Source: Candidatus Acidulodesulfobacterium ferriphilum (GTDB taxonomy: Bacteria; SZUA-79; Acidulodesulfobacterales; Acidulodesulfobacteraceae). Taken from it: a DNA stretch of 64,000 nt. The notes beneath the pieces were generated by a model. The model ran no database searches and was not told where the DNA came from. It saw only the letters and a program-made list of their open reading frames with translations. Made by a program: the position numbers and the translations under genes. Shown one piece after another: positions 50,407 to 56,437 of this stretch. Numbering within the stretch: the stretch's first letter is position 1; each line of letters starts with the position of its first letter. Location of the stretch: the NCBI GenBank assembly GCA_004195035.1, contig SGBD01000001.1:186001-250000 (forward strand), in the 5' to 3' direction.

Positions 50407-50970
50407 TTAAACATTTTTAAGATATTCTGTTTTTTGAATATCTCCTTGCGGTAAAGAATCGGTAAAGTTTTTTTCAAAATCCTTATTATCTAATACTTTC
50501 ACAGCATTTTGTATATGCGCCGAAGCTAAATGACTGTATCTTAAGGTCATAGTAATTGATTTATGTCCTAACAACTCCTTAACGGTCGTTAAATCTACCC
50601 CGCCCATAACAAGCCTGCTTGCGAACGTATGCCTTAAGTCGTGAAAGTGAAAGTCTAAGATGTGCGATTTTCTAAGCACCGATGTAAGCCCTCTTTTAAA
50701 ATCATAATAAGGCTTTAGTGTTTTAGGATTTAAAAGACATAATCGTATTTTATATGCCTTGCAATGCTCGGTAAAGCGTTATACAACATCTGGTTTATCG
50801 GAATTTCCCGCCGTTCGCCGTTCTTCGTTTTATCAAGTAAGGTTAACCGGTTCCTTAATCCCTGTCCCAGGTAAGTTTAAGTATCTCCGATTTTCTCATT
50901 CCTGTATTTAAAGCAGTTATCACGATAGGCTTTAATAAGGCTCGCAATGCGATATAAGCCTTTCTGTTTA
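50407..50970 (-). pseudogene. Tyrosine recombinase (integrase), truncated and frameshifted
   Basis: Reading the - strand from about 50970, three frames in turn give integrase core segments: KPIVITALNTGMRKSEILKL (first catalytic Arg), then NGERREIPINQMLYNALPSI, then LDFHFHDLRHTFASRLVMGG and ELLGHKSITMTLRYSHL with the His-x-x-Arg, His and nucleophilic Tyr. At least two frameshifts separate them and the N-terminal half is missing. The gene lies between the right repeat of island 1 and the left repeat of island 2, so its owner is unclear. Confidence 0.85.
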
Positions 50971-51019: not shown

Positions 51020-51072
51020 TTTTTAATGGAGCCGGCGATAGGAATCGAACCTACGACCCGCTGATTACGAAT
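51020..51072. repeat. att-like repeat, left, island 2 (tRNA-Thr 3' part)
   Basis: Identical over 53 bases to 56356-56408: five T, AA, then the tRNA-Thr 3' half up to the anticodon loop. It is a tRNA fragment, not a gene. The following gap to 51396 is AT-rich with no feature that I recognise. Confidence 0.92.
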
Positions 51073-51396: not shown

Positions 51397-51822
51397 CTAC
51401 TCTTTATATCTATATAATGATATATCATATCCCCAATCCGGATTGGAGGCTATGATTTCTTTCTCTTGATTTTCGCAATTATGCCCATAAAATTTAACTT
51501 CATAAATATATTCTTTAGATAATTGCGTTGCTTCTATATGTTTAACTTTTTTTTCTTTTATAAACCTTGATAGTGTATTAGAAAAATATCTGGGCAACGA
51601 ATCCCCCTTGCTGCCGGTTCCACTCCCGCCAAGCGTCTTTTTAATATCATCAAAATCTTCTTTGTAGTTCTTGCAAAATTCTATTGCAATTTGATAAGCG
51701 GTTAGATAAACGTATCTGCCAAAATGAGGTGCATAATCTTTTGGCTCCACATCTTTAAGAATTTTAGTAATTTTTTCTTCTAATTCATACTTTGTCCATA
51801 TTGATTCTTCCGATTCCTGCAT
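51397..51822 (-). CDS. Hypothetical protein of island 2
   Basis: A 141-residue protein. Visible features: an acidic, helical start, then HFGRYVYLTAYQIAIEFCKN (about residues 33-52) and a Gly-rich GGSGTGSKGDSLPRYFSNTLSRFI (about 66-90). The tail is beta-like. The Gly-rich part does not match a Walker A. I do not recognise the family. Possible promoter for leftward transcription in 51823-52024, which otherwise holds nothing visible. Confidence 0.6.
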   Translation of the reverse strand: MQESEESIWTKYELEEKITKILKDVEPKDYAPHFGRYVYLTAYQIAIEFCKNYKEDFDDIKKTLGGSGTGSKGDSLPRYFSNTLSRFIKEKKVKHIEATQLSKEYIYEVKFYGHNCENQEKEIIASNPDWGYDISLYRYKE

Positions 51823-52024
51823 AACTCCTCTTCTTAATTTTAAGATTTTTAAATTGATTAAATCATAGATCGAAACGGTAAGCCTAAAAAGCCCTGCTAC
51901 AAAAAATTTAACTTGCCCGAAAAAGTTCCGGCTTATATCAAATAAGTTAATTTATAAATAAATATTTGATTATACCTTAATTTCTATTGAAAAATATAAG
52001 TTTATTTTCAATTAAATATTATAC

Positions 52025-53044
52025 TTACAAATGATTAATTACAAACTCCACGCTTGCACGCTTATATATACTTGGTATACCATTAGGTATATTACCAGTT
52101 TTATTATAATTATCTTCTTGCGTTTTATTTCTAAAGTTATAAACGGAATATTCGGGACTATTTTTTAAATTATTATCTTTTATTATGCGATAAATATCAT
52201 GGCGTTTAGCATCTGTTTTTTTCTTTTGAATTTCATTTATTAAATCCTGGCAAGATAATGGATATTGTTCCAATAAATTTTCTTTCTTTATTTTTATTAC
52301 CTCAATAGAATTAATCGGATGAACATCTCCAACCAATTTTAGTGCGGTAGCACCGTTTTTTTCGACAAATGAACCTTCTTTTAAAAAACTAATTTTTTTC
52401 ATTAACTCTTCATCTATAACTAATATTTGTCGTTCATTTTTTTCAATCAAACCTTTCTCAGTATCAAGAATAACAGCATTTGAAGGTCCAACATTTGAAA
52501 TTTTCTCTATCAATTTTAAAAAATTTTTATTGTTATTATACATTCTTTTATATAGAATATTATTTAATTCTGTATATAATATTTTTTGAGTTCGCCCCCC
52601 GTATCTGAAATAAATATCACCATCTTTTATAATTGAGTCTCTACCTTCGTTTTTTTTGGCAATTACCGGTTTTTCTTTACATTCATCTATATAAAATATA
52701 CCAAATTTATTGCCGTTAAATTCATAAGGATATTGTTTCCAATTTATTGCAGGTGCAAATATTTCAATTAATGAACCGGATATTATCCCAGGATCAATTT
52801 TTTCAAATTGATCTATTGATTTTTTATTTAATCCAGTTAATTTTCGCGGACTATCTGTTACGCCAAATATAATAAATCCACCCTTATTATTAGAAAAAGC
52901 CGCAAAATCACGAAAATATTCAGCTAAATTACTTAAATTAAATTGTTCTTTAAATTCTAAATATTCACTCTCACGATGATATAATGTGTTATCGGATCTA
53001 AGCTTTAATAAATCCGCTATTATTTGATGAAATGTTTTAGGCAT
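52025..53044 (-). CDS. AlbA_4/Schlafen-type putative DNA-binding protein
   Basis: A 339-residue protein. Residues about 20-150 match the AlbA_4 (divergent AAA_4/Schlafen-like) domain: ESEYLEFKEQFNLSNL, then DFAAFSNNKGGFIIFGVTD. The later half (about 210-330) has a winged-helix look. Such proteins are frequent in defence islands and are thought to bind nucleic acid, but the precise role here is unknown. Confidence 0.8.
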   Translation of the reverse strand: MPKTFHQIIADLLKLRSDNTLYHRESEYLEFKEQFNLSNLAEYFRDFAAFSNNKGGFIIFGVTDSPRKLTGLNKKSIDQFEKIDPGIISGSLIEIFAPAINWKQYPYEFNGNKFGIFYIDECKEKPVIAKKNEGRDSIIKDGDIYFRYGGRTQKILYTELNNILYKRMYNNNKNFLKLIEKISNVGPSNAVILDTEKGLIEKNERQILVIDEELMKKISFLKEGSFVEKNGATALKLVGDVHPINSIEVIKIKKENLLEQYPLSCQDLINEIQKKKTDAKRHDIYRIIKDNNLKNSPEYSVYNFRNKTQEDNYNKTGNIPNGIPSIYKRASVEFVINHL

Positions 53045-53141
53045 ATTTATTCATTTAAATAAAAAATATCAAATTATTCTTTCTTATTCTTAATTGAGCT
53101 ATTTTAATATCATTACTTCTTAATATTTTAAGTCTACAAAT

Positions 53142-53509
53142 TTATTTTTTATTTTGTTTTTGCTGCCCATACCAATAGCCGATTAAAGCACCAAGAAGGC
53201 TGCCTGTTACATCTTTTGAAATAATATGCAAATAGCCAAAAATACCAATAGCGGCAAGGACTGCTATGCCAAAAATAGGCTATAAATGGCTGCTCTATAT
53301 GAATATTTAGTTATAACTGGCTTATTTTTTGACCATGAATCAATTGCATTTGAAATTGATTCAATTAAACTTTTATTATCTAGAAATTCAAAGATATAAT
53401 CAAGAAAATTTGAGGCATCGGCAGTTTGTTCCGGTTCTTGATTGTCAGTAGTAGTTATTTTTATTGCTTCTGGTTTGTCGTTTTTAGATTTATCGATATT
53501 TTCTCCCAT
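53142..53509 (-). pseudogene. Small membrane protein gene with a one-base frameshift
   Basis: The upstream frame gives 81 residues, starting with a polar, acidic tail and ending near KYSYRAAIYSLF. The next frame continues with FGIAVLAAIGIFGYLHII and GALIGYWYGQQ, two membrane helices, to a stop at 53142. The shift lies at a run of five A/T (53271-53275). Either the gene is broken or one base is miscalled. Family unknown. Confidence 0.65.
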
Positions 53510-54029: not shown

Positions 54030-54030
54030 A

Positions 54031-54116
54031 TTTTCACTTTAATATAAAATAAAAATAAAATTATTTCATTAAAGTAATAATTAATTTGACATACTTATCA
54101 TTAAAGTGGTATTTTG
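54031..54116. promoter_or_regulatory. Operator-like repeats and promoter between XRE and methyltransferase genes
   Basis: Three ATTAAAGT sites: one on the - strand near 54042-54031, one in TTTCATTAAAGTAATAATTA (from 54064) and one in TCATTAAAGTGGTA (54098-54111). TTGACA (54086-54091), 18 bases, TATTTT (54110-54115) forms a rightward promoter whose spacer contains the third site, so binding there would block it. The same motif recurs at 56122-56164. Bases 54117-54389 hold no other feature that I see. Confidence 0.6.
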
Positions 54117-54389
54117 TAAATATTGTTTGCATTATCTTTTTAGAATTTTAACATAAATATGACATAGGAAAAATTAATATTCGGAAAATTAGTAATAGTG
54201 CGGTTTTTAAAACCTGCGTTCGCATAAGTTTAATAAAACTGTAATAGATTTGTAACAAAAAATAAACATAAAATTCATACTACTGCATTATTTTATTTGA
54301 TATAATATTTTTATGTCTAAATAAGGATGAATTATAAATTAATAAAAAATCAATCAAATTAATTTTAAATTAAACTAAAAAATATTTAA

Positions 54390-55244
54390 ATGGAAAATAC
54401 GGCTAAAAAAAATATTGAATATTATCTTAACCAAGTTTACCTTGAAGATATAATGGTTCTTCTAAAAAAACTTCCGGCTCACAGCGTCGATATGATTTAT
54501 GGAGACCCGGATTACAATGTTGGAATAAAATACGGCGATAAAACCTATACCAAAAACTTTGACGAATATATTGAATGGTATATTAAATTAGCCGCCGAAT
54601 CGTTAAGAGTTTTAAAGGACACAGGAAATATGTTTTTAATCAACTATCCCAAACAAAACGCACATGTCAGGGCAAAATTCTTAGATAAGGCATGCCATGA
54701 AGTTTATGATTATGTTTGGGTGTACAATACAAATGTGGGGCATACCCCGAAACGATTTACCACAGCCCACAGAAGCATATTGCATTGCATAAAAACTAAA
54801 AATAACAAATTTTATAAAGATAATGTAGCCGTTCCTTATAAAAATCCTACGGATAAAAGAATAATGCAAAATATGGCAAACGGTTCAAAAGGAAGGATGC
54901 CTTACGATTGGTTTTATTATGATTTAGTTAAAAACGTCAGCAAAGAGAAAACGTTTCACGCCTGCCAGATACCGCAAAAGCTCTCAGAAATGTTGCTCAA
55001 GTCCTGTACGATGCCTGGAGATATTGTTTTAATATTATTTGGAGGGAGCGGCTCGGAAATAGAAATTTGCAAAACACTAAATAGACAATTTATTTCTTCC
55101 GAAATTGACGAGAAATATTATAATATGATTCTTGACCGGTTAAATAACGGTAAAATTGACGAAAAATATCGGCTAAATATAAATAACCGCGAAATTCAAA
55201 GGGGAATATCTACTATTTTGCGTCAACCCGATTTGTTAAAATAA
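54390..55244 (+). CDS. DNA methyltransferase (amino-type, beta-class order)
   Basis: A 284-residue restriction-modification methylase. The catalytic motif IV is near residue 38-42 as GDPDY (usual form DPPY or SPPY; the middle Pro is replaced by Asp), and the SAM-binding motif I equivalent LFGGSGSE is near residue 215, the order of beta-class N6-adenine or N4-cytosine enzymes. The region between carries target-recognition sequence. It lies convergent with the neighbouring candidate restriction gene (14-base gap). Recognition sequence unknown. Confidence 0.88.
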   Translation: MENTAKKNIEYYLNQVYLEDIMVLLKKLPAHSVDMIYGDPDYNVGIKYGDKTYTKNFDEYIEWYIKLAAESLRVLKDTGNMFLINYPKQNAHVRAKFLDKACHEVYDYVWVYNTNVGHTPKRFTTAHRSILHCIKTKNNKFYKDNVAVPYKNPTDKRIMQNMANGSKGRMPYDWFYYDLVKNVSKEKTFHACQIPQKLSEMLLKSCTMPGDIVLILFGGSGSEIEICKTLNRQFISSEIDEKYYNMILDRLNNGKIDEKYRLNINNREIQRGISTILRQPDLLK

Positions 55245-55258
55245 TATTTAGTATATCG

Positions 55259-56068
55259 TTAAATATATAAATATGGGGTTAGCCATTCCAATATTTCGCT
55301 TCGTTTCGGAACGCAAATTCCTTTTGAATTTATGAGCCTTTGTATTATATCGAGAATATTATTATGGTTTATATTTTTAGGATTATCTTTTTTAGCTAAG
55401 ACATGTTCGACAAAATCGAAAGCTAAACATGGAATTGCTATGCAACTTAATAAAGTATTTATTCTGCCGATATTAAAGCGCGCATTATTATTAAAATCCG
55501 GCTTATTTGAAATCATATGATATTTATCGTCTTCATTCCAACCTAAAATATCTAAAAAATTTAAAAAACCTAATAAACCATAAGAACCAAAGCAATCCTT
55601 GCAATTCTTTTCTATATCTTCAATGCAATTTAAAATTTGACGGTTGGGCGCATATCTTAATTTTCCGCCTTCCATTTCCTTAAAATCAAGCATATAAGCC
55701 AATCGATATATTAACGTAAGTAATTTCTTGAATTGACCTTTATTCGTCAAAGATACCTTTAAAATAATATCAAATATTTCGTTAAAACTTAATAAGCCGA
55801 CGCCGCTAACCATAGGGGTCATGTCATAAAGATTAGGATTTTCGGGACGAAAGACCTCTTTTCCAGGTTTAAGGAAATATACTTCGATATTATTTGGTAA
55901 AACACTGATAACATGTTCTTGAGGGTTTTCCCGGGTTCCACTTTTAAAAGAAATCGCTTCGTTAAGTCTTTTGAGTCTTTTTTCTTTAAGTTGCGATTTG
56001 TTTTCCCTGTCTAACCGGCTTCGACCCGTTTGCAATTTTGTTTTTAAAACATTTTCGCAATCATTCAT
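55259..56068 (-). CDS. Candidate restriction endonuclease partner
   Basis: A 269-residue protein I do not recognise by sequence. It lies 14 bases from the methyltransferase stop, convergently, within the same island and shares its operator-like motif, so a restriction enzyme is the best guess. Visible features: a basic start, IEVYFLKPGKEVFRP near residue 63 (an acidic-x-x-x-x-Lys pattern that could hold metal ligands), and helical body. No PD-(D/E)xK signature is certain. Confidence 0.6.
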   Translation of the reverse strand: MNDCENVLKTKLQTGRSRLDRENKSQLKEKRLKRLNEAISFKSGTRENPQEHVISVLPNNIEVYFLKPGKEVFRPENPNLYDMTPMVSGVGLLSFNEIFDIILKVSLTNKGQFKKLLTLIYRLAYMLDFKEMEGGKLRYAPNRQILNCIEDIEKNCKDCFGSYGLLGFLNFLDILGWNEDDKYHMISNKPDFNNNARFNIGRINTLLSCIAIPCLAFDFVEHVLAKKDNPKNINHNNILDIIQRLINSKGICVPKRSEILEWLTPYLYI

Positions 56069-56121
56069 GAACTCTCCATATCCACAATAAGAATAAAATT
56101 TTTGTACTGAAATTTATTATA

Positions 56122-56164
56122 ATTAAAGTTTCTAATAAAATCCTTTCATTAAAGTGGTAATTAA
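56122..56164. promoter_or_regulatory. Operator-like repeats upstream of the candidate restriction gene
   Basis: ATTAAAGT occurs at 56122 and within TTTCATTAAAGTGGTAATTA (from 56144). The longer site matches the one at 54064 in 19 of 21 bases and the one at 54098 in 14 consecutive bases. It lies about 55-95 bases before the start at 56068. The remaining gap to 56355 shows nothing else. Confidence 0.6.
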
Positions 56165-56355
56165 GAATATACGATTGTACTAATATTGTTAGAATACTGC
56201 GACATGCCTCACTGATTTTGCTTGGAGTTCAGGGATAGCTTTGTTAGGACAAAGTCCCCCCCTAAATAAGATGGATTAACGGAAATAATGCACAAACTTA
56301 CAATATTAAACGGGGGGGTGAAAATGAAGGAAACGCCGAACCTGCGAACCCTTTG

Positions 56356-56408
56356 TTTTTAATGGAGCCGGCGATAGGAATCGAACCTACGACCCGCTGA
56401 TTACGAAT
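56356..56408. repeat. att-like repeat, right, island 2
   Basis: A 53-bp copy of the sequence at 51020-51072, forming the 3' part of the intact tRNA-Thr gene on the - strand. Confidence 0.92.
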
Positions 56409-56437
56409 CAGCTGCTCTACCCCTGAGCCACGCCGGC
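56363..56437 (-). tRNA. tRNA-Thr (anticodon CGT)
   Basis: Cloverleaf on the - strand: acceptor GCCGGCG/CGCCGGC, D-arm GGCTCAGGGGTAGAGC, anticodon arm GCTGA-TTCGTAA-TCAGC, T-arm with TTCGATT and encoded CCA. Its 3' end is the integration site of island 2. Confidence 0.96.

Follow-up and report, generated by a model that had tools for sequence, protein, structure and literature searches.

The two copies of a 21-base motif in a restriction-modification (RM) locus of Candidatus Acidulodesulfobacterium ferriphilum are probably operators of the adjacent XRE regulator, and the switch as a whole was probably captured from a conjugative or replicative mobile element, where it served as a repressor circuit. 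On sequence grounds, the regulator belongs to an XRE family found at Rep/ParAB, type-IV-secretion and excisionase promoters. A single XRE protein very probably binds its own promoter, the methylase-facing promoter and the front of the putative restriction gene (R), because the boxes are kept in three loci together with xre and the box type tracks the recognition helix. The captured circuit would coordinate xre and exchangeable cargo, the methylase and the nuclease, and may work like a C-protein system while having another source. The identity of the operators, the arrays with their promoter-like elements, the gene order and the exchange of an operator along with its regulator are read from the sequence.

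The window, which is the whole analysed stretch of 64,000 nucleotides, contains the locus as an island. Two 53-bp repeats of the 3' part of a tRNA-Thr gene bracket R, the methylase, xre and the cargo, as listed here.
51020..51072, + strand: left end repeat, a 53-bp copy of the tRNA-Thr 3' part
51397..53509, - strand: cargo on the xre strand, downstream of that gene
51397-51822, - strand: cargo ORF of 141 aa
52025-53044, - strand: cargo Schlafen/AlbA_2 gene
53264-53509, - strand: cargo ORF of 81 aa
53598..54029, - strand: xre regulator, 143 aa, with a helical C-terminal extension (HTH_3 at residues 20-74, Pfam 9.2e-11)
54390..55244, + strand: beta-class DNA methyltransferase, 284 aa, motif DPDY (PF01555, 6.1e-33; PADLOC MTase_II, 448 bits)
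55259..56068, - strand: putative restriction gene R, 269 aa, convergent (tail-to-tail) with the methylase
56356..56437, - strand: right end, with the tRNA-Thr(CGT) gene at 56363-56437 and the second 53-bp repeat copy at 56356-56408

The xre gene diverges from the methylase and heads the same-strand run of exchangeable cargo, while R lies last on the right. The AF2 model of the XRE protein has a mean pLDDT of 81. Within the window's island there is no T4SS or rep gene, and xre faces the methylase instead. The 81-aa ORF seems, by eye, to run on in another frame into a short membrane-like segment (53138-53509), so the gene may be broken or frameshifted. Just beyond the left repeat lies a C-terminal integrase fragment (50407-50679, identified by reading the translation). 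A related tRNA-Thr region in two further genomes, G010 and G008, adjoins integrase-like sequence, and no R relative was matched in either.

The methyltransferase expected of a type II RM system is thus present (PF01555, PADLOC MTase_II). R is without a known family and consequently owes its restriction label to synteny. No match to R was obtained in Pfam, NCBIfam or PADLOC, and comparison with PDB sequences gave nothing below E 0.09. Plasmids and phages yielded no relative, viral contigs gave four pattern matches and no relative, and the search of genome contigs returned only the already known related loci. The single-sequence structure model is unusable (pLDDT 38.7). In complete related loci R always stands tail-to-tail with the methylase, and it is this constant pairing that suggests R as the putative cognate endonuclease.

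Relatives of R occur in 3 of the 30 phylum genomes, the window's own included: at G020:C14, at G007:C32 and C63 (two parts of one gene at contig ends), at G007:C45 and at G007:C51. The methylase is 94-96% identical at the first three of these loci and 89% identical at G007:C51, for R the corresponding figures are 93-95% (near full length) and 81-82%, and xre is 77-79% identical. The cargo changes from locus to locus. Downstream of xre, G020 carries a DUF3644 gene (PADLOC PDC-S19) and a SIR2/nSTAND protein, and C45 carries, immediately after xre and on its strand, the PARIS-like genes AriA and AriB (L036, 918-3181; PADLOC 2.5e-31 and 2.2e-16). G007:C51 has neither an xre beside the methylase nor such boxes before it. 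More distant methylases, 63-67% identical, were seen at L041-L044 paired with other partners, so that one methylase type appears with partners showing no similarity. At L042, L043 and L044 the partner belongs to DUF6996/DUF6997 and shows, by eye, an EGKN stretch resembling a PD-(D/E)xK motif, and R gave no match to these partners in shallow alignments. In the Thermus phage phiLo (L111, MH673673.1), a methylase 74% identical adjoins genes annotated as putative restriction endonucleases.

The control elements, including both motif copies, occupy the gap between xre and the methylase and the gap before R.
54036..54043, - strand: box 1 (ATTAAAGT), which overlaps the xre promoter in its -10/start region; kept in three related loci and in T4SS-type arrays
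54041..54069, - strand: xre promoter-like site ATGAAA-N17-TATATT (9/12 in the consensus scan, weak alone)
54064-54084, + strand: motif copy 1, TTTCATTAAAGTAATAATTAA, overlapping the xre -35, with box 2 (ATTAAAGT) at 54068-54075
54086..54115, + strand: divergent promoter-like site TTGACA-N18-TATTTT facing the methylase, with box 3 (54100-54107) within its spacer
54298..54306, + strand: extended -10 TGATATAAT near the methylase start, also conserved in G007:C51, where xre and the boxes are lacking
56117..56155, - strand: R promoter/operator unit, with -10 TATAAT (56121-56116), box 4 (56122-56129) and box 5 (56148-56155)
56144-56164, + strand: motif copy 2, TTTCATTAAAGTGGTAATTAA, containing box 5

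The first-pass annotation had reported the motif pair at 54064 and 56144, and both copies are indeed there, identical at 19 of 21 bases. They are the sole matches in the window when up to three mismatches are allowed, and 100 shuffles gave a mean of 0.08 matches and never two. The 14-base core that was said to overlap the TTGACA-N18-TATTTT element (TCATTAAAGTGGTA) does lie inside the promoter-like site, and the additional ATTAAAGT sites described beside both copies are found at 54036-54043 (- strand) and 56122-56129 (+ strand). The bare 8-mer ATTAAAGT is not enriched in the window (11 sites against 8.0 expected, with 14 of 100 shuffles as high); five of the 11 sites fall inside the two gaps. 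The original proposal would have been refuted by a motif common across the genome, and this is not the case: in the 1,873,120 bases scanned (97% complete), the 18-base core has two exact occurrences, both at the island, none with one mismatch and one with two. Among the 30 phylum genomes, occurrences with at most one mismatch outside RM loci are at chance level, since they number five against four for the reversed control pattern. A search of the homologous loci found the boxes kept in all three related loci that retain xre. The box proposed earlier, ATTA-N6-TAAT, did not hold up as a conserved operator feature, being carried by 7 of 37 boxes, and it is replaced by WTTAAAGT as the conserved core. 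A short dyad, CWTT.AAAG, is a possible form of the box, with C preceding W in 16 of the 37.

The array between xre and the methylase is better kept than its surroundings in the loci with xre (G020:C14, G007:C32, G007:C45). Over 54030-54120 the identity is 87/91 in G020 and 83/91 in C45, compared with 95/111 and 84/111 in the stretch that follows and with 365/450 and 351/447 in the xre gene. The C45 array has a 2-base deletion, and a plausible promoter, TTGCAT-N17-TATATT, remains. A consensus scan of this gap yielded six promoter-like sites versus 4.7 in shuffles, and because the scan is so close to the shuffles, the promoter calls lean on conservation across loci. They are uncertain at all array sites, given the A/T richness. 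Over some 90 bases the array aligns with those of T4SS type (BLAST E 2e-10, searched in a small set), and the -35/box/-10 layout of the 54086-54115 site is shared with Rep- and T4SS-type arrays in the alignment. As with the mobile-element XRE repressors of this phylum, the divergent promoter-like site of the window carries a box between its -35 and -10. The search pattern used for mobile elements had a spacer of 17 and missed this promoter because its spacer is 18.

In the R promoter the -10 is good and the -35 poor, and the weaker of its boxes has a strong one just upstream; no sigma-70-like site upstream of R reached the threshold of the consensus scan. A 39-base pattern, drawn from the sites themselves, matches eight places in the 30 genomes and none with the reversed control. 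These are four R promoters of RM loci (in C45 with an ORF between), two xre arrays and two second arrays heading a transfer operon, so that the unit is confined to RM R genes and two mobile elements. G020 and G007:C63 carry the R-side unit unchanged. It matches the xre-promoter arrays of Rep elements at 38/44 and 37/44 positions, where the best of 100 shuffles reached 30 and 33. In C45 the unit precedes an extra 123-aa ORF upstream of R, its boxes are 26 bp apart, and a third follows 31 bp on; this 26 + 31 spacing is that of Rep-type arrays. The 123-aa ORF is related (60%, 45 residues) to one located behind the second array of a mobile element. In G007:C51, the 94 bp before R are 97.9% identical to the array of a different XRE, whose gene lies some 11 kb off on that contig, and on the opposite side of this array is a transfer operon with TrbI.

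Relatives of the regulator (E <= 0.001) are present in 21 of the 30 genomes, and their neighbourhoods were read in 20 regions, where the ParA, ParB and transfer gene names come from translations, except for TrbI, the coupling protein and the excisionase. In L091 and L092 (also L095 and L097), xre diverges from an HTH_36 replication-type gene followed by ParA and ParB. In L093, L094, L096, L098, L106, L107 and L109, it diverges from a 71-77-aa HTH gene with transfer-type genes, and in L099-L105 and L108 from outer-membrane-like proteins. Intact elements have two arrays, the first next to xre and the second at the head of the transfer operon. Four T4SS-type elements (G003:C15, G004:C66, G007:C81, G024:C69) show a second divergent box-bearing promoter 2-4 kb from the first, which in G003 heads an excisionase-like gene (Tn916-Xis, 2.5e-5). 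The RM xre genes are 45-55% identical to those of Rep and T4SS operons and, in a midpoint-rooted tree of 20 rows, form one clade inside a group with them (96/96).

Box type and recognition helix go together. Among 26 XRE relatives, at least two WTTAAAGT boxes within 230 bp upstream are found in 8 of the 9 with a DISDTQI/SYTQIYHYE-type helix and in 0 of the 17 others, where the helix grouping was defined after the sequences had been seen, the lineages that are independent are few, and the nine, which are not independent loci, comprise four RM loci, two Rep loci, two with T4SS-type boxes and L072, which has no boxes. Relatives with other helices have other upstream repeats. The relatives at L099-L105, which face the outer-membrane-like proteins, have an NVAYTQ-type helix, and several carry a near-perfect palindrome, ATTTAAGTTTAACTTAAAT, upstream.

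From this arrangement we infer the binding of XRE, the methylase-first timing, the autoregulated xre-type promoters and the control of R. XRE dimers would occupy the WTTAAAGT boxes. On entry into a naive cell, which holds no XRE, the divergent promoter would be open and would add to constitutive expression of the methylase. Rising XRE would then shut this promoter through box 3 and hold the xre-type promoters, which would drive xre with its cargo as well as R, at an autoregulated level. R would consequently rise after methylation, as with C proteins. The earlier suggestion that one regulator coordinates the locus is borne out in part: predicted XRE sites with conserved boxes stand at the xre, methylase-facing and R promoters, and from these coordination may be deduced. 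The methylase also has a promoter-like site of its own, TGATATAAT, which is probably an XRE-independent promoter; as this stretch near the methylase start is conserved in a locus without xre and boxes, the regulator cannot be the methylase's only control. In addition, xre heads the cargo run.

A rival account treats XRE as a plain repressor of the island, with the methylase, R and cargo silenced in the settled state and released by stress or entry, and with no activation of R. Transfer and excision promoters of mobile elements are normally repressed, and these boxes occupy such promoters in the mobile elements. Moreover, boxes overlap core promoter elements in the island (box 1 the xre -10, box 3 the divergent spacer and box 4 the R -10). 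However, a box just upstream of a poor -35 lets some HTH_3 proteins activate, and box 5, like box 2, is in this position. Constant silencing would also leave the restriction system without a function, and the plain-repressor account is considered doubtful.

It is unlikely that XRE regulates itself alone, with the R-side boxes being relics of the element's second array that exert no control of R. The R-side unit does resemble a remnant of the array that heads the transfer operon in intact elements, and its third box is gone in the window. Its boxes are conserved at 58 of 60 positions against 46 of 48 in the adjoining bases, which is not clearly higher and makes a relic possible there. However, each of the four R-side units compared (window, G020, G007:C63, C45) retains both boxes, their 26-bp spacing and the -10, while the farther flanks of the window and G020 diverge (38/44 over 56069-56112; 92/117 over 56221-56330). 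In C51, the array was replaced by that of another XRE and not lost.

It is very unlikely that XRE is a classical C protein, belonging to a known family of type II controllers and differing in its box. Fold comparison puts its HTH domain level with C.AhdI (Z 11.8 across 69 residues, 1.6 Å) and C.BclI (Z 11.5), its profile matches the C.BclI chain (28.5 bits, 9.5e-6), and the divergent order of xre and methylase with a separate R resembles Kpn2I (PMC6237814). However, HTH_3 regulators of other function tie with the same fold, ImmR and P22 c2 lie within about 2 Z units, and the PADLOC Control_protein matches (17.9 bits, 6.6e-4; 16 bits) are weak, other HTH models scoring far higher. Within the phylum, its relatives are found at promoters of mobile elements and not at RM genes. 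Chance likeness within A/T-rich DNA, with which the lack of enrichment of the bare ATTAAAGT would agree, is extremely improbable in view of the shuffles, the whole-genome scan, the conservation and the 39-base unit without control matches in the 30 genomes.

The captured-circuit reading can be extended, tentatively and somewhat short of probable, to the phylum. Its defence islands may be built on the repressor circuit of conjugative elements, with the methylase on the entry-fired promoter and the nuclease and exchangeable cargo (PARIS-like, SIR2/nSTAND, Schlafen/AlbA) on the repressor-side promoters. A settle-or-transfer switch would have become a protect-first, cut-later switch, and an exchange of the repressor would bring an exchange of the R operator, as in C51. 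If this is true, C-protein-like control would have arisen here separately. Intermediate stages in the rise of an RM controller circuit can be compared directly in these loci. Some elements are intact and have both arrays. In C51 the RM pair adjoins a transfer operon and R is under the array of another repressor. In C45 an additional element gene separates the array from R. The window and G020 are compact islands flanked by tRNA. The arrangement yields testable predictions as to which operator belongs to which regulator, and it points to one regulator for an RM system and its exchangeable defence cargo.

Two usual features of C systems are lacking here. The C box is defined as a GACT/AGTC-type sequence upstream of the regulator gene in PMC3758141 and PMC5282649, other box types being described for further C classes (PMC4321490); the sequence before xre is WTTAAAGT and not of the GACT/AGTC type. 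Regulator and R do not share an operon, as the methylase separates them and their upstream regions are separate. Because these two features fail and the sequence relatives are mobile-element regulators, the system is filed as a variant of RM control and not as a C protein. The first-pass view of a C-like XRE with an ATTA-N6-TAAT box changes in two points: the box is WTTAAAGT, occurring in arrays of 2-3, and the protein is a member of a mobile-element XRE family and not simply a larger C protein. Among the open-licence papers listed in the literature search, none was recognised from its title or the opening of its abstract as describing a mobile-element repressor that controls an RM system in this way.

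Several known systems share parts of the design. ImmR of ICEBs1 and P22 c2, considered as PDB matches only, have the HTH_3 fold, and relatives of this xre are divergent to replication and transfer operons; in contrast, there is no sequence family assignment beyond the HTH domain, and xre is here wired to the methylase, R and defence cargo. RptR (PMC12255303) represses a defence island of RM and other defence genes through repeated short boxes conserved across genomes. However, it is a single-domain four-helix protein of 79 aa with a TAGCTA box and a Type I RM system, and does not belong to a mobile-element repressor family. The EcoRV/Esp1396I-type C proteins are likewise small HTH dimers with strong and weak sites at their own, methylase and R promoters, for which a delay of R has been proposed (PMC6237814, PMC3758141), and EcoRV C activates from a distal high-affinity site (PMC6237814). 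The present system differs in its 143-aa regulator, WTTAAAGT instead of GACT-type boxes, R outside the regulator operon and mobile-element repressor ancestry. Kpn2I, as outlined in PMC6237814, also departs from the regulator-R operon: its regulator, C.Kpn2I, diverges from the methylase, its three genes are transcribed separately and a regulator site lies at the methylase promoter. Its R, however, is expressed constitutively and its C site is found inside the C gene, whereas in the window the boxes precede R and occupy the xre promoter. The C.Csp231I/C.EcoO109I class (PMC4321490) comprises HTH proteins with a C-terminal extension whose site centres are about 33 bp apart (15-bp sites, 18-bp spacer), compared with 30-33 bp for boxes 2-3 here; these proteins differ in having 98 aa and CTAAG-N5-CTTAG sites. 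The absence of C.Csp231I among the matches listed in the profile and fold comparisons of xre does not speak against a likeness. Taken by analogy, the captured circuit would work like a C-protein system, being nearest to Kpn2I in gene order and to C.Csp231I in site spacing and C-terminal extension.
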